Below, in pieces: positions 27,512 to 33,798 of a stretch of 64,000 bases of DNA (the stretch's first letter is position 1; each line of letters begins with the position of its first letter). This DNA is from Geothrix oryzae. Lineage in GTDB: Bacteria > Acidobacteriota > Holophagae > Holophagales > Holophagaceae. The stretch is taken from positions 2,170,001 through 2,234,000 of the forward strand of contig NZ_AP027079.1 of NCBI RefSeq assembly GCF_030295385.1, given 5' to 3'. The notes beneath the pieces are model-generated. The model did not search any database. It was not told where the DNA came from and saw nothing but the letters and a program-made list of their open reading frames with translations. The translations under genes and the position numbers were made by a program.

Positions 27512-29265
27512 GGGCGGCCCCGCAGGGTGGCTTCCGCCTGCATGGTCTGCTCGCCGCGCAGCCATTGGATCAGGGCCTTGTCGCCGGGCTTGTGGGCGCC
27601 CAGGGCAGCCATGAAATCGTAGATGCTCTTGATGGGCCGCTCGCCGAACTTCGTGAGGATGTCGCCGGCCTGGAGGCCGAGGGCCTCGGCGGTGGAGCCC
27701 TTGGAGACGCCGTTGATGCGGAACCCCTTCGGATTGTCCGAGTAGTCCGGGATGGTGCCGAAGGCGATGCGCATGGGGCCGCCGTCGCCCTTCATGGGCA
27801 GCTTGGCGGTCTCGGGGTCGAAGGCGGGCAGCGTGTCGGCGTTGGCCAGATCCAGCGCCACCGCCCGCCCGAAGGGCGCGAGCTTCGCCATGCCCTCGAA
27901 GTTGATGCGGTCCGCCGTGTCCGTGGGCCGGTGGTACTCGCCGTGGATGCCGGTGAAGAAGAAGAAGGTGGGGATCTTCGCCTGCGAGAAGCTCATGTGG
28001 TCCGAGCCGCCCACGCTGGCGCCCACATCGGCGCTGATGGCGAAGCCCTCGGGGGCGAGCTTCTTCGCCGCCTCCACGGCGGATTTCGGGGCGCCCAGGC
28101 CGCCCATCATCAGCTTGGGCGCCTTGGGATCCAGGCGGCCCACCATGTCGAAGTTGAGCATGAACTTCACGGATTCCAGAGGGTGGGTCGGGTGCTGCAC
28201 CCAGTAGCTCGAGCCCAGCAGGCCCTCCTCCTCGCCTCCGAAATGCATCAGCAGGATGGAGCGCCGGGGCCGGGCCTTCTTCAGCTCCCGCGCCAGTTCC
28301 ACCACCATCGCCGTTCCCGAGGCGTTGTCGTCGGCGCCGGGATGCACCTGGCCGCGGGTCTCGGCGCCGCCCATGCTGTGCCGCTCGCCCAGGCCGAGGT
28401 GGTCGAGGTGCGCGCCGAGGACGATGTATTCCTTCCTGAGCTTGGGATCTCGGCCGGGGATCACCGCCACCACATTGGGCACCTGGGCTTCTTCGCGGCG
28501 GAGCTTCAGCTTCAGCGTAAGGGCGGTCCAGGGCGCGTAGATGAAGTCCTGGCTGGCGGGCTTGCCCGTCGCCTTGATGGTCTTGAACCGGGCCTGGAGA
28601 TCGCCGCAGGCCGCGCCGAGCGCCTCCGGGGAGAGGCCCAGGACCGGGATGTCGAACTTCACCGGCCCCTCTTCCCGCTGCAGGGGCCGGAGCCCGCCCT
28701 CTTCCAGCACGAGGACCGCGGCCACCTGGGCCGTCTCCAGGCGCTTGAGGCGGGCCAGCAGGCTCCGCTCGCCCCGGGGCAGGTGGGCGAAGGCGTCCAG
28801 ATCCGGCACGGCCCGGGCGATCACCGCCACGCGACCCTTCAGTTCGATGCCCGCCAGGTCGTCGTACCCGCCGGGGATCTGCACGCCGTAGCCCAGGAAG
28901 GCCAGGGGCTTGTTCCGGAAATCCGCGTCGCCGCTGAAACCCAGGGCCTCGAGGTCTCGGCCCCACACCAGGGGCCGGCCCTCGTCGCCGTGAAGCAGCA
29001 CGGCCTCCTGCTGCTCGCGCACCACCTTGGCGATGAACGGGAACCGCTGGATCTCCGCCTTCAGGCCCAGGGCCTTCCACTCCCGCGCGATGCGACCGGC
29101 GGCCTGCTCCAGCTCGGGGTAGCCGTTGCCGCGGCCCTTGAGGGCCGGCGAGGCCAGGTAGTCCACATCGCGGCGCAACCGGGCGGCCACGGCCGTCTCG
29201 GAGCCGGAGGGCGGCACCGGCGCCACGAGGGCCGCGGCGAGGAAGGCAAAAGTCCAGGGGCCCAT
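27508..29265 (-). CDS. Secreted M28 zinc aminopeptidase with PA and PDZ domains
   Basis: The protein has 585 residues, starting with a signal peptide (MGPWTFAFLAAALVAPVPPSG). A protease-associated domain lies at about 105-230, within the M28 fold. Zinc and catalytic residues appear in VLGAHLDHLGLG, HPGADDNASGTAMV, HFGGEEEGLLGS, FDMVGRLD and GEYHRPTDTADR. A PDZ domain (RINGVSKGSTAEALGLQAGDIL) closes the protein. It removes N-terminal residues from peptides outside the cytoplasm. It is the first gene of the M28-aroB-TPR-unknown operon. Confidence 0.92.
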   Translation of the reverse strand: MGPWTFAFLAAALVAPVPPSGSETAVAARLRRDVDYLASPALKGRGNGYPELEQAAGRIAREWKALGLKAEIQRFPFIAKVVREQQEAVLLHGDEGRPLVWGRDLEALGFSGDADFRNKPLAFLGYGVQIPGGYDDLAGIELKGRVAVIARAVPDLDAFAHLPRGERSLLARLKRLETAQVAAVLVLEEGGLRPLQREEGPVKFDIPVLGLSPEALGAACGDLQARFKTIKATGKPASQDFIYAPWTALTLKLKLRREEAQVPNVVAVIPGRDPKLRKEYIVLGAHLDHLGLGERHSMGGAETRGQVHPGADDNASGTAMVVELARELKKARPRRSILLMHFGGEEEGLLGSSYWVQHPTHPLESVKFMLNFDMVGRLDPKAPKLMMGGLGAPKSAVEAAKKLAPEGFAISADVGASVGGSDHMSFSQAKIPTFFFFTGIHGEYHRPTDTADRINFEGMAKLAPFGRAVALDLANADTLPAFDPETAKLPMKGDGGPMRIAFGTIPDYSDNPKGFRINGVSKGSTAEALGLQAGDILTKFGERPIKSIYDFMAALGAHKPGDKALIQWLRGEQTMQAEATLRGRP

Positions 29266-29356
29266 GGCATCTCCGGGGATCCCTCTACTTTACCGGCGCT
29301 CCGGAGATCCGTCCCGGTTCCCGCAGGATTTGGGCCGCCTGTGGGAGAATGGCCTC

Positions 29357-31144
29357 ATGTCCGAACAGGGAGCTTTCTTCCAATCCGACCGGGTCGACCA
29401 GCGCCCCATGCGCCATGCCCTGCTGTGGCGCCTCGCCGGCTACCTCCGGCCCCAGTGGGCGGCACTCCTGGCCCTCCTGGTCCTGATGGCCCTCGGCGCT
29501 TTCCTGGAAGTGCTGCCCTCGGAACTCACCCTGCGCCTCATCAACCGCTTCATGGGCCAGGGCAGCCTGAAGGGTGCCGCCCCCATGGTGGCGGGCTTCT
29601 TCGGCGTGCTCATCGCGGGCTTCCTCGTCAGCTTCGCCCGCTACTTCCTCCTGGCCAAGGTCGGCCAGAAGGCCATGCTCGACCTCCGCGTCCAGCTCTT
29701 CGCGCACCTCATGGGCCGCAGCACGGAGTTCTTCCACCGGAATCCCGTGGGCCGCCTCATGACCCGCGTCACCAGCGATGTCCAGAACCTGAACGAAATG
29801 TTCGCCTCGGGCTTCGTAGCCATCGTGGGGGACGCCCTGTCCCTGCTGGCCATCGTGGCCTGGATGTTCTGGACCCACCCCGGCATGGCCCTGGTGGCGC
29901 TGGGCATCCTGCCCTTCCTGCTGGTGGCCACGGAGGTCTTCCGCCGCCGGGCGGGCGAGGCCTTCCGCGAAACCCAGCGGCGCTACGCCGCCATCAACGC
30001 CTTCCTCCAGGAGCAGATCTCCGGCATGGGCCTGGTGCAGGTCAACGCCCAGGAAGCGCACAGCAGCCAGCAGTTCCGCAACCTCAACGAGGACTACTTC
30101 CAGGCCTTCCTGCGCACGATCTTCGCCTACGCCGTGTTCTTCCCCGTGGTGGAGTTCATCACCTCCGGCACCCTGGCGGCGCTCATCTTCTACGCGGGCT
30201 TCAAGCTCCAGGCCGGGGCCATCACCTGGGGCCTGCTGCTGGCCTTCATCCAGCAGTCCAGCCGCTTCTTCCGGCCCATCCGTGAACTGGCCGAACGCTA
30301 CAATGTGATGCAGACCGCCCTGGCTTCCAGCGAACGCATCTTCCGGCTGTTGGACAACCGCGAGGAGATCCCCGAAGCGCCGGGGGCCAAGCCCGCCGTC
30401 TTCGCGGGGGAGATCCGGTTCGACGAAGTGACCTTCGCCTACGAGGAGGGCGGCCGGAAGGTCGTGCGCGCCCTCAGCGGCCTCATCCCCAAGGGCAAGC
30501 GCATCGCCGTGGTGGGCCACACCGGGGCCGGCAAGAGCACCCTCATCAACCTGCTGATGCGCTTCTACGATGTGCACGAGGGCCGGATCACCGTGGATGG
30601 CGTGGATGTGCGAGAGCTCAAGATCCGCAGCCTGCGCGACCTCTTCGGCCTGGTGCTCCAGGATGTCTTCGTCTTTTCCGGCACCCTACGCGACAACATC
30701 GTGCTGGACCGGCCCATGGACGAGGCCCGCCTGACCTCGGTCCTGGAGCAGAGCCAGCTCAAGGACCTGGTGGGCCGCCTGCCCCAGGGCCTGGATACCC
30801 AGGTGGGCGAGCGCGGGCAGAAGCTCAGCGCCGGGGAGCGGCAGCTGCTGGCCTTCGCCCGCATGCTCTACCTGGAGCCCGCCGTCCTGCTGCTCGACGA
30901 GGCCACGGCCAACATCGATTCCGAGACCGAGGCCAAGATCCAGACCGTCATCGAGCGCGTGAGCCACCGCCTCACCACCTTCACCATCGCCCACCGCCTG
31001 TCCACCATCCGCGACGCCGACGAGATCTGGGTCATGGACCAGGGCGCCCTCGTCGAGCGCGGCACCCATGACGGCCTCATCAGCCAGGATGGCGTCTACG
31101 CCAAGCTGGTGCGGCTGCAGTTCGCGGACGGCGAGGCGGCCTAG
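29357..31144 (+). CDS. ABC exporter, fused membrane and ATPase domains (MsbA-like)
   Basis: This 595-residue half-transporter has six membrane segments in residues about 25-310 (AALLALLVLMALGAFL to ITWGLLLAFIQQ). The ATPase domain has Walker A VGHTGAGKSTLINLLMRF, Q-loop VLQDVFVF, signature LSAGERQLLAFARML (LSAGE in place of LSGGQ), Walker B AVLLLDEATANID and the switch His in IAHRLSTI. It probably works as a homodimer exporting lipid or peptide. Its place near LPS genes would suit MsbA but does not prove it. Start ATG 29357. Confidence 0.9.
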   Translation: MSEQGAFFQSDRVDQRPMRHALLWRLAGYLRPQWAALLALLVLMALGAFLEVLPSELTLRLINRFMGQGSLKGAAPMVAGFFGVLIAGFLVSFARYFLLAKVGQKAMLDLRVQLFAHLMGRSTEFFHRNPVGRLMTRVTSDVQNLNEMFASGFVAIVGDALSLLAIVAWMFWTHPGMALVALGILPFLLVATEVFRRRAGEAFRETQRRYAAINAFLQEQISGMGLVQVNAQEAHSSQQFRNLNEDYFQAFLRTIFAYAVFFPVVEFITSGTLAALIFYAGFKLQAGAITWGLLLAFIQQSSRFFRPIRELAERYNVMQTALASSERIFRLLDNREEIPEAPGAKPAVFAGEIRFDEVTFAYEEGGRKVVRALSGLIPKGKRIAVVGHTGAGKSTLINLLMRFYDVHEGRITVDGVDVRELKIRSLRDLFGLVLQDVFVFSGTLRDNIVLDRPMDEARLTSVLEQSQLKDLVGRLPQGLDTQVGERGQKLSAGERQLLAFARMLYLEPAVLLLDEATANIDSETEAKIQTVIERVSHRLTTFTIAHRLSTIRDADEIWVMDQGALVERGTHDGLISQDGVYAKLVRLQFADGEAA

Positions 31145-31177: not shown

Positions 31178-32326
31178 ATGCTCTCCTTGCCGCCCCTCTA
31201 CCCCATCACCGACGCCAGCCTCGTGGAGCCGCTGTCGGCGCAGATCCGACGGTTGGGCGAGGCCGGCTTTCCGCTGGTGCAGTTCCGGGGCAAACCGCTC
31301 GGCGCGAAAGAGCAATGGATCGAATTACGCACCGCCCTGGCGGAAGCCGCGGCGAACGGCGGCTGGCCCATGGTCTGCGTGAACGACCGGGCCGACCTCG
31401 CCCTCCTGGCGGCCCGGGAGGGTCTGGTGCCCTGGGGTCTGCACCTGGGCCAGGGCGACCTGCCTGCCGCCGAGGCGAAGCGGCTGCCCGGTCTGGCCGA
31501 AGCGCACCTGGGCGCCTCCACCCATGAGGCCGGCGAATGGGAAGCCGTGGACGCCGCCTGCGACCATGCCGGGGTGGGACCCTTCCGCGGCACGCGCACC
31601 AAGGCCGGCCACGCCGCGCCCATCGGGCTGGAGGGACTCCGGGCCGGCTGTGCCGCGCTGCGGGCCCAGGACCTCGCGCCCGTGGCCATCGGGGGCCTGA
31701 CGCTCGCGGATGCCGCGGCCTGCTTCGAGGCCGGGGCCGAGTCCCTGGCCATGGTGGGTGAGGTCCACCGGACGGACGATCCCGCGGCCCTGGGCTGGGA
31801 GGTCCAGCGGCAGCGCTGGCGGGTGCGCCCGCCGTTCCGGCGCGGCCAGGGCCTCGCGATTGTCGGCGGCAGCGGGGCCGGCAAGACCACCCTGGGCCGC
31901 GAGCTGGCCCGGCGTCTGGCCCTGCCCTTCCACGACCTGGACGGGGCCATCGAGGCCCGGGAGGGGCGCCCGGTGGCCGCGATCTTCTCCGCCGGTGGCG
32001 AGTCCGCCTTCCGGGCGCTGGAATCGGCCCTCCTCCCGGACCTGCTGGCCACGCCGGCCGTGGTGGCCCTGGGGGGCGGGGCCTGGGAATCCCCCGTCAA
32101 CCGGGAGGCGGTGCGAACCGCCGGTTTCGCCCCTCTCTGGCTGGCGGAAGCGCCCGCCCGGGCCTGGGTACGGGCCGGGCAGGACCCCAACCGCCCCCTG
32201 GCCCAGGACCGGGCCGCCTTCATGGCCCGGTGGGCCGCCCGGCAGCCCGCCTGGTCGCTGGCGCCGATGGCCCTCGCCTTTGGTCACAGTTCCCGGGAGC
32301 TGGCTTCGGCCTTGCTAGACTGGTGA
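31178..32326 (+). CDS. Fusion of a ThiE/TenI-like domain with shikimate kinase
   Basis: The protein has 382 residues. Residues 1-205 follow the thiamine-phosphate synthase/TenI pattern: PLVQFRGKPLGAKEQ, CVNDRADLALLAA, GLHLGQGDLPAAEAKRL, GASTHEAGEW, GVGPFRGTRTKAGHAAPIGL and VAIGGLTLADAAACFEAGA. Residues 222-382 are a shikimate kinase: GGSGAGKTTLGRELARRL, HDLDGAIEAREG, FRALESALLPDLL, GGGAW, NRPLAQDR and RWAARQPAW. The kinase makes shikimate 3-phosphate. The first half joins the thiazole and pyrimidine of thiamine, or is a TenI-like regulator. No stop or frameshift separates them. TAGACT lies 8 bases before the ATG, so the transcript may be leaderless. Confidence 0.85.
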   Translation: MLSLPPLYPITDASLVEPLSAQIRRLGEAGFPLVQFRGKPLGAKEQWIELRTALAEAAANGGWPMVCVNDRADLALLAAREGLVPWGLHLGQGDLPAAEAKRLPGLAEAHLGASTHEAGEWEAVDAACDHAGVGPFRGTRTKAGHAAPIGLEGLRAGCAALRAQDLAPVAIGGLTLADAAACFEAGAESLAMVGEVHRTDDPAALGWEVQRQRWRVRPPFRRGQGLAIVGGSGAGKTTLGRELARRLALPFHDLDGAIEAREGRPVAAIFSAGGESAFRALESALLPDLLATPAVVALGGGAWESPVNREAVRTAGFAPLWLAEAPARAWVRAGQDPNRPLAQDRAAFMARWAARQPAWSLAPMALAFGHSSRELASALLDW

Positions 32327-32345: not shown

Positions 32346-33086
32346 TTGGATCTGATCCTGTCCGATCTGCACTCGAACCTGCACGCCCTCCGGGCCGTGC
32401 TGCGCTTCGCGCGGCGGCGGGCCATCCACCGCTTCGTCCTGCTGGGCGACCTGGTGGGCTACGGCGCCCATCCCAACCAGCTGCTGGACAAGGTGCGGGA
32501 GCTGCGGCCCCGCTTCATGGTGCGGGGCAATCACGACAAGGTCTGCGCGGGTCTGGAGCCCGATTCCAGCTTCAGCCTGCCCGCCCGGCAGGCCGCGGAC
32601 TGGACCCGGGAGAAGCTGCGGCAGGACAACTGGCGCTTCCTGGTGGACCTGCCGGTAGGGCCCCTCTGGGTGGGCGAGGACTACCAGATCGCCCACGGGT
32701 CACCCGTGGACGAAGACGCCTATCTGCTTCACATGCGCGAGATCAGCCAGGCTTTCGATGCCTTCGAGTGCCAGCTCTGCTTCTTCGGCCACACCCACCT
32801 GCCCGGCTGCTTCGAGCTGGACGAGATCCAGGGCCGCCTGAACTGGATCAGCCCCGAGCCCGGGGAATGGTTCGAGCTCCAGGCGCACTGTCGCTACCTG
32901 GTGAATCCGGGCTCCGTGGGCCAGCCCCGGGACCGCGATCCCCGCGTGTCCTTCATGACCTTCGACCCCAAGCGCCGCCGTCTGCGCCTGCACCGCCTCG
33001 ATTACGATGTGAAGGGCGCGGCCAAGGCCATCCTGGCCGCGGGGCTGCACCGCAACCTGGCAGACCGGCTGGGCCAAGGCATTTGA
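32346..33086 (+). CDS. Calcineurin-like metallophosphoesterase (YfcE/MPP superfamily)
   Basis: This 246-residue protein carries the dimetal motifs SDLHSNLHAL, LGDLVGYG, VRGNHDKV, AHGSPVDED and FGHTHLPG. Such enzymes hydrolyse phosphodiesters or phosphomonoesters; DNA, cyclic nucleotides and protein phosphates are all possible substrates. The start is TTG 32346, placed so that the first metal motif begins at residue 6, as in the family. An upstream alternative is not evident. The C-terminus is basic. It precedes a PilZ-like gene by 13 bases. Confidence 0.88.
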   Translation: MDLILSDLHSNLHALRAVLRFARRRAIHRFVLLGDLVGYGAHPNQLLDKVRELRPRFMVRGNHDKVCAGLEPDSSFSLPARQAADWTREKLRQDNWRFLVDLPVGPLWVGEDYQIAHGSPVDEDAYLLHMREISQAFDAFECQLCFFGHTHLPGCFELDEIQGRLNWISPEPGEWFELQAHCRYLVNPGSVGQPRDRDPRVSFMTFDPKRRRLRLHRLDYDVKGAAKAILAAGLHRNLADRLGQGI

Positions 33087-33099
33087 AAGGCAGGATCCC

Positions 33100-33798
33100 A
33101 TGGGACACGCATCCTCTCTGTCCGCTCCCGTGCTCGAGCAGTTCCTCATCCAGGCCCGGCTCACCAAGGCCGTGGGGAGCCTGAGGCTCCAGGGCGTCAA
33201 CTCCCGCCTGCTGGGGGATCTGCACATCCATGGATTCCGTCCGGGATCGGTCCTGGAGCTGTCCGGCCTCCACCCCCGCGATTCGGTGCCCCCAGAGGGC
33301 ACGGCCGTGGCCCTTACAATCCTCCTGGGCGACGAAGTACTCACGCTCGAGTCCCTCCTCCTCCCCCCCGTACTCGACGAGGCCGGCAACACCCTCCTGC
33401 GCCTGGACTGGCCGCACGAATCAGCGCACCTCCACCACCGGCGGAACCTGCGGGTGGCCGCGCCCGACCAGTCGCCCCTGAAAGTGAAGGTGGCGCACGG
33501 CGGGCGCCAGTACGAAGCGCTGCTGGTGAACCTCACGGAGACCGGCGTGGGGCTCGCCCTGGAGGAGCCCCTGATGGTGGACCTCCACGACGCCGTCGAG
33601 ATCGATGCGGAGCTGCCGGATGGCACCCTCCTGCATTGCCCCGGCGAGGTGCTGCACCTCATCTACCTCGAAGGTCAGCCCCACCCCACCCGCCTGGGCC
33701 TCATCCTGCAGCCCCGGCCCGATACGGATCTCGAGGCCATCCACCGCTTCATCCAGGCCCGGCGCACCGACCGCTCGCAGAGCTTCCGGAAGAGCTGA
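33100..33798 (+). CDS. PilZ-like domain protein
   Basis: This 232-residue protein ends in a beta-barrel domain (about 108-215) that fits PilZ. HHRRNLRVAA supplies the RxxxR-type arginine motif, and NLTETGVGLALEEPL stands at the usual D/NxSxxG position as NxTxxG. PilZ domains bind cyclic di-GMP and control motility or exopolysaccharide. The preceding 100 residues may be a YcgR-type N-terminal barrel. The Ser-to-Thr change is conservative, so binding is plausible. The gene ends 7 bases before the 311-bp inverted-repeat element. Confidence 0.7.
   Translation: MGHASSLSAPVLEQFLIQARLTKAVGSLRLQGVNSRLLGDLHIHGFRPGSVLELSGLHPRDSVPPEGTAVALTILLGDEVLTLESLLLPPVLDEAGNTLLRLDWPHESAHLHHRRNLRVAAPDQSPLKVKVAHGGRQYEALLVNLTETGVGLALEEPLMVDLHDAVEIDAELPDGTLLHCPGEVLHLIYLEGQPHPTRLGLILQPRPDTDLEAIHRFIQARRTDRSQSFRKS

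Follow-up and report, generated by a model that had tools for sequence, protein, structure and literature searches.

In the 64,000-nucleotide stretch of Geothrix oryzae analysed here (the window), a single gene codes for a ThiE-type barrel and a shikimate kinase (SK) in one protein, with a transporter gene upstream and a phosphoesterase gene and a PilZ-domain gene downstream (Table 1). Genomes, loci, families and genera are designated by labels beginning with G, L, f and g, respectively.

Table 1. Features at the fused locus and around it, in window positions or residues of the fused protein
Feature	Position	Strand	Basis
MsbA-like ABC transporter gene, upstream context	29264..31144	+	profile search
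thiE-aroK fusion gene, 382 aa	31178..32326	+	ATG start, TGA stop; one frame; conserved across Holophagales
ThiE-type TIM-barrel domain, N-terminal, residues 1-204	31178..31789	+	Pfam TMP-TENI, 1g4t alignment, residue table, fold
ThiE-domain active-site equivalents	residues Q35 R37 K39 N69 D70 Q92 D94 S114 T139 T141 K142 G172 G173		1g4t alignment, residue table
Linker helix and junction, residues 205-225	31790..31852	+	W207, Q210, G225 invariant; helix 202-216 in predicted model
Shikimate kinase (SK) domain, C-terminal, residues 226-382	31853..32323	+	Pfam SKI, 1l4u alignment, residue table, fold
SK-domain site residues	P-loop G230-T237, D253, D255, R279, G299-G301, R339, R355		1l4u alignment, residue table
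Calcineurin-like phosphoesterase gene, downstream context	32346..33086	+	Pfam Metallophos_2, synteny
PilZ-domain gene, downstream context	33100..33798	+	profile search

Two enzyme domains in one frame

The frame runs through its 382 codons without an internal stop. Pfam TMP-TENI matches residues 7-195 with 100.5 bits (cut-off 27), covering positions 1-179 of a profile of 180, and Pfam SKI matches residues 233-347 with 100.1 bits (cut-off 22.1). In an AlphaFold2 model of the fusion built from 16 sequences (mean pLDDT 92.1, pTM 0.90), predicted residues 1-218 match the ThiE structure 1xi3 (Z 23.6, rmsd 2.5, 200 residues aligned) and predicted residues 222-382 match AroK 1kag_A (Z 20.9, rmsd 1.7, 152 residues aligned). 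Alignment with solved structures equates the two halves with the thiamin phosphate synthase of B. subtilis and the shikimate kinase of M. tuberculosis, and the aligned residues comprise the QxRxK, ND, D, S, TxTK and GG blocks of a ThiE site for HMP-PP/Mg and thiazole phosphate as well as the P-loop, the D/R/GGG residues for shikimate and the LID arginines of an SK. S130A and K159A are named as mutants of B. subtilis ThiE in an excerpt of PMC3144219 and also figure in a PDB title. The sequence-only reading, in which a full-motif ThiE and a complete SK share an uninterrupted frame, is borne out by the Pfam matches, the site residues and the fold, all of which are present; it is confirmed that a ThiE/TenI barrel and an SK form one protein in the window.

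Neither half reaches the NCBIfam cut-offs, which are annotation and naming thresholds rather than biochemical features: the ThiE domain scores 95.4 bits against the 145.1 of the thiE model TIGR00693, and the protein misses all the shikimate kinase cut-offs, the best match being NF010552 with 92.1 bits against 186. A fused relative from outside Holophagales (G332) does pass the TIGR00693 threshold (154.5 vs 145.1 bits). An identity as TenI instead of ThiE is ruled out by the residues and by a score of 20.7 bits for NF005819 (cut-off 251). We file the domain as a member of the TMP-TENI family that is predicted to work like ThiE.

The genome consists of a single contig of 3.27 Mb, in which the fusion is the sole full-motif ThiE and the sole SKI match above the Pfam cut-off; the best candidate for a second SK elsewhere reaches 16.4 bits, below the cut-off of 22.1. 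As to whether another thiE or aroK exists, a question raised with the original observation, the answer for SK is that no further match exceeds the Pfam cut-off, and for ThiE that one weak TenI-like paralogue is present (L002:1456-2013, + strand, about 40-41.6 bits). This paralogue was rejected as a real ThiE on account of its low score (about 40 bits) and its altered equivalents of N69, D70, Q92 and S114; weak second TMP-TENI matches of this kind are common in Holophagales genomes. ThiC, ThiG and a ThiD-family kinase are also present, and the thiamine genes found are scattered (thiC at L113, thiG at L114, the thiD-family gene at L115 and the fusion in the window).

Conservation across Holophagales and loss of the ThiE site

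A search for the same domain pair in relatives found the fusion at full length and in a single frame in 67 of the 77 Holophagales genomes, with identities of 41-100%. The junction is spanned in five further genomes, in four of which the gene ends at the contig end (G034, G079, G084, G085) and in one of which it is interrupted by a run of N (G010). Three genomes have fragments alone (G005, G021, G090) and two have no fusion match (G033, G082); in none of the 77 do thiE and aroK occur as two separate genes. The possibility that the orthologues are always two genes therefore fails within Holophagales (77 genomes), while outside the order separate genes are the usual state among the genomes searched. 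In genus g16, whose genomes measure 0.9-1.2 Mb, identity falls to 41% and the frame is still single. Named records encoding close relatives of the fusion come from Geothrix, other Holophagaceae and one Acidobacteria bacterium. A probable pseudogene fragment, L123 (G004:C12:4237-4392), is a 54% identical piece of fusion residues 4-55 with an internal TAA, and an intact copy lies elsewhere in G004.

Purifying selection acts on both halves of the fusion. Of 18 hand-picked pairs in all, 11 were chosen within the genus; their dN/dS values are 0.09-0.26 in the ThiE domain and 0.08-0.47 in the SK domain, and in ten of the 11 the ThiE value is the lower one. The residue table covers 62 of the 67 full-length Holophagales fusions, with G063, G067, G069, G071, G072 and the partial genes left out. 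Five SK residues (K236, D255, R279, R339 and R355) are kept in all 62 rows, 12 of which have alanine as the central residue of the SK GGG motif. Seven ThiE residues (Q35, R37, K39, N69, D70, D94 and K142) show no change in 60 rows, the exceptions being G074 and G095. Proline replaces T139 in the three g16 rows, and the fused protein of G187 has arginine at the K142 position; both are small departures that weigh against a working ThiE site.

Profile searches of 28 Holophagales genomes (limits of E 1e-4 for SKI and ThiG, 0.001 for ThiC and 1e-10 for ThiD) allowed us to place the fused domains in their genomic context. The fused SK is the sole SKI match in 27 of them; the second match in G092 comes from an assembly that is 8% contaminated. 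The fused ThiE domain is the sole TMP-TENI match above 60 bits in 20 of the 28, and ThiC was found in 19 of these 20, including three g16 genomes of 0.9-1.2 Mb. The exception, G084 (about 330 contigs), has no ThiC or ThiD matches, yet its readable ThiE residues are intact. A further strong TMP-TENI gene occurs in seven genomes (G073, G074, G086, G088, G089, G092 and G093), and G095 has no TMP-TENI match above 60 bits, its fused domain scoring 43.5. A new role for the first domain, which had been offered as one explanation of the pairing, is unlikely as its main role, given the seven residues kept in 60 of 62 rows and the many genomes where it is the sole strong TMP-TENI match, nearly always in the company of ThiC.

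Three fused ThiE domains, those of G074, G095 and G533, are predicted from their residues to be dead, and the corresponding loci L062, L078 and L176 are listed here as candidate pseudoenzyme fusions. G074 has lost Q35, K39, N69, D70, Q92, D94 and K142 and kept the SK residues; its fused domain escapes the Pfam TMP-TENI model, and two other TMP-TENI genes are present in the genome. G095, 89% complete, has lost R37, K39, N69, Q92, D94 and K142, also with the SK residues kept, and it has no ThiC, ThiG or ThiD match at the limits given above. G533, from family f33 outside the order, carries a fusion in which the Q, R, K, N, D, D and K positions are lost and the SK residues kept, and no other TMP-TENI match was found in it (E 1e-5). 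The branches of G074 and G095 measure 1.19 and 0.44 in the ThiE tree (0.05 for the sister G073 and 0.13 for G094), as against 0.24 and 0.31 in the SK tree (0.10 for the sister and 0.23 for G094). For G074, dN/dS amounts to 0.52 in the ThiE domain and 0.34 in the SK domain; for G095 against G094, the ThiE-domain value of 0.11 is not raised, at a dS of 2.67 that is saturated. The ThiE site is thus lost where its step is covered elsewhere or where thiamine genes were not found. The fused site is retained, however, in six Holophagales genomes that possess another canonical ThiE, so that redundancy alone is no predictor of site loss.

Gene order and number of fusion events

Of 62 Holophagales loci, 53 have a homologue of the phosphoesterase behind the fusion; those lacking it, nine in all, belong to g16, g17 and g25, and one of them, L080, leaves no space for it before the contig end. 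Outside the order, 60 aroK loci from the class of G257 were chosen by hand from the listed SK matches. They include nine with a thiE already noticed nearby (G229, G236, G325, G401, G443, G460, G482, G492 and G496) as well as G533. Within this sample, in which proportions are not frequencies, a same-strand thiE lies upstream of aroK with no transporter between in 16 loci (32-576 bases between domain ends), lies beyond one transporter gene in 12, is fused in one (G533) and is absent in 31, where aroK is still there; thiE on the opposite strand occurs in none of the 60. The separating transporter is a gene of the sodium:neurotransmitter-symporter family. Upstream accC (biotin carboxylase) is present in 55 of these 60 chosen loci and the downstream phosphoesterase in 51. 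At L184 and L190 the stop of thiE overlaps the nearest aroK start by 4 bases, and in several genomes of the class of G257 thiE and aroK are same-strand neighbours among the matches listed. Other arrangements exist: in G042, from the window's own class, accC adjoins aroK without thiE, and in G168 (L127, family f21) thiE and aroK are adjacent but convergent on opposite strands. The most likely ancestral order is accC>thiE>aroK>phosphoesterase. As thiE and aroK are neighbours in this string of the phylum, where fusions are found too, the fusion most likely joined old neighbours.

The presence of ThiE outside the order tracks the aroK locus. Thirty genomes were compared, 29 of the class of G257 together with G187: TMP-TENI is present in all 17 whose aroK string contains thiE or whose aroK is fused to it, whereas the 13 without thiE at the aroK locus gave no TMP-TENI match (E 1e-5). 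Likewise, six f33 genomes besides G533 have aroK with no adjoining thiE and no TMP-TENI match at the same limit.

Single-frame matches to both domains were detected outside Holophagales in at least G257, G332 and G187 by the phylum search (396 genomes, up to four candidates scored per genome), and in at least G525, G526 and G527 by a search of the class of G257 (148 genomes, up to 13 candidates); G533 was recognised from its locus. With these counts as lower bounds, ThiE-SK fusions occur in at least four family groups of the phylum, namely f1, f66 with f77, f53 and f33.

Trees were calculated with 21 of the 62 Holophagales rows, and these form one clade with both the ThiE and the SK domains (support 100/100 and 100/99). 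Thirty of the 62 rows, comprising all rows outside g1 and five of g1, were sampled for the linker, and W207, Q210 and G225 are invariant in all of them, the two ThiE-dead ones included; the W207/Q210 junction is not shared by the fusions outside Holophagales. The SK tree rejects one origin for all fusions (28 rows against 54; p-AU 0.00067), and the seven outside rows require three changes on starred branches there. A single origin is not rejected by the ThiE tree (p-AU 0.37, with the three ThiE-dead rows and L083, L084, L085, L087, L088, L090, L137 and L138 omitted). The outside fusions cluster in that tree with support of 95/83, and in the ThiE tree that includes the dead rows with 79/87. Several fusions are the simplest reading; one early fusion followed by later splits is possible.

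Function of the fused protein and relation to known systems

We consider it probable that the gene codes for a bifunctional housekeeping enzyme with two independent working sites, formed by the joining of the old neighbours thiE and aroK. The N-terminal barrel would perform the ThiE step, in which thiamine phosphate is formed from HMP-pyrophosphate and thiazole phosphate; the C-terminal domain would perform the AroK step, the phosphorylation of shikimate with ATP; and each active site would operate independently of the other. The two genes, neighbours in the accC>thiE>aroK>phosphoesterase string of Acidobacteriota, would have become one frame by the base of Holophagales at the latest, and the same probably happened in other families too.

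It is unlikely that the barrel is instead, or also, a structural or dimerising scaffold needed by SK, with catalysis secondary and losable. Such a role would account for the three fusions in which the barrel is retained with a ruined ThiE site (G074, G095 and G533), which a purely catalytic role leaves unexplained, and the confidence of the predicted model as a whole (pTM 0.90) may point the same way. The conserved linker, with W207 and Q210 invariant in the 30 sampled rows, dead ones included, makes a structural role possible when taken together with the dead barrels. A regulatory variant, which we regard as similarly improbable, would have the barrel co-opted to support or regulate SK, the W207/Q210 helix fixing the domains and ligand binding in the barrel tuning the kinase, and the barrels of G074, G095 and G533 would then be pseudoenzymes that serve only SK. 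However, the six other genomes of the family of G533 have an SK without ThiE beside aroK, the seven site residues are kept in nearly all Holophagales rows, and the ThiE domain of G074 evolves fast, with a higher dN/dS than its SK. A frameshift or stop in a fused relic would also kill SK, and inertia may therefore be enough to preserve a dead barrel.

The sequence-only reading had suggested that the fusion might coordinate the two pathways while pointing out that they share no step, which is true of the two reactions themselves. Transketolase requires TPP and supplies erythrose 4-phosphate, and by this route TPP would bear on the shikimate pathway; thiazole is made from tyrosine in some bacteria. 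TPP is named as the transketolase cofactor in the excerpt of PMC3144219. A fusion that coupled the pathways, for example with thiamine phosphate or TPP controlling SK, would be in keeping with the occurrence of the fusion in at least four family groups and with a linker conserved within Holophagales. We nevertheless judge such coupling very unlikely: recurrence is explained by the neighbouring genes, 12 of the 60 chosen loci have thiE and aroK parted by a sodium:neurotransmitter-symporter-family gene unrelated to either, and thiE is gone from the string in 31, aroK remaining. Nothing was found in support of coordination, and the older adjacency accounts for the pair.

Riboswitch control of the fusion was likewise not supported: an Rfam scan of the 64-kb window gave no match, and at the Rfam threshold the fused, thiC, thiG and thiD loci of the window genome contain no TPP riboswitch. 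The only match at these loci is a lysine riboswitch aptamer (RF00168, 74 bits, L114:4635-4814, + strand) about 2 kb from thiG. Between 30900 and 33900, no promoter-like site was detected and two terminator-like sites were, both on the minus strand, within and just past the PilZ gene.

A sequencing or assembly artefact, in which a missing stop merges two genes, has practically no chance of being the explanation and is refuted by the conservation of the one-frame fusion, full length in 67 of 77 Holophagales genomes at 41-100% identity and in at least seven genomes outside the order.

The bifunctional enzyme predicted here would bridge two unrelated essential pathways, and its gene is retained in nearly all Holophagales genomes searched, reduced ones included. 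Fusions of this kind are usually read as a sign of a functional link between the partners. A single phylum contains neighbouring genes, genes split by a transporter, fusions, fusions with a predicted dead ThiE and loci that lack ThiE, which makes the rule that fusion means functional link directly testable; the anatomy of the locus favours history, that is, old gene order, over coupling. The gene is also an annotation trap, since naming it ThiE alone or SK alone conceals the other enzyme, and a ThiE label can mislead for the three domains predicted to be dead.

In comparison with known enzymes, the barrel fold of ThiE from B. subtilis (2tps/1g4t) and P. furiosus (1xi3) is shared over residues 1-219 (Z 21-24) with the site residues kept, whereas the window domain is 24-28% identical to them, is fused to SK and falls under the NCBIfam thiE cut-off. 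Residues 222-382 have the fold of AroK/AroL from E. coli (1kag) and M. tuberculosis (2iyq) (Z 20-21), and the P-loop, shikimate-binding and LID residues are also kept; the differences are an identity of 28-34%, the fusion itself and scores under the NCBIfam cut-offs.

The pairing of ThiE with SK is indeed unusual, as had been supposed, for known fusions of either domain join other partners. In THI6 of Candida glabrata (3nl6) and in the multifunctional ThiE model NF007070, ThiE is likewise N-terminal in a multi-enzyme chain, but the partners belong to the thiamine pathway, unlike the shikimate-pathway kinase of the window. SK is one domain of a multi-enzyme chain in AroK-AroB (NF010556, NF010627) and AROM (6hqv) as well, and the partners there and in aroE-aroK are other shikimate-pathway enzymes. 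The available part of PMC11237513 reports an aroE-aroK fusion in Methanomicrobiales along with aroD-aroE fusions, and mentions thiamin-pathway fusions without details.

Domains of both types are also found joined to unrelated ones, in proteins whose roles presumably differ from that of the window fusion. Such combinations are represented by a Nudix family protein with a ThiE-like part (NF006530) and by the SK-like regulator BzdR (NF006015; excerpt of PMC3602430), and in both the partner differs from that in the window. Among the titles and abstract starts listed from the open PMC library for this pair or its hosts, none describes a ThiE-SK fusion, and the words fusion, fused and bifunctional are absent from the portion of PMC9137983 available; domain-architecture databases may list the combination uncommented. 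Finally, in G037, G039 and G041, three genomes of family f2 in the same class as the window, SK lies within open frames of 438-441 aa, which leave room for another SK fusion.
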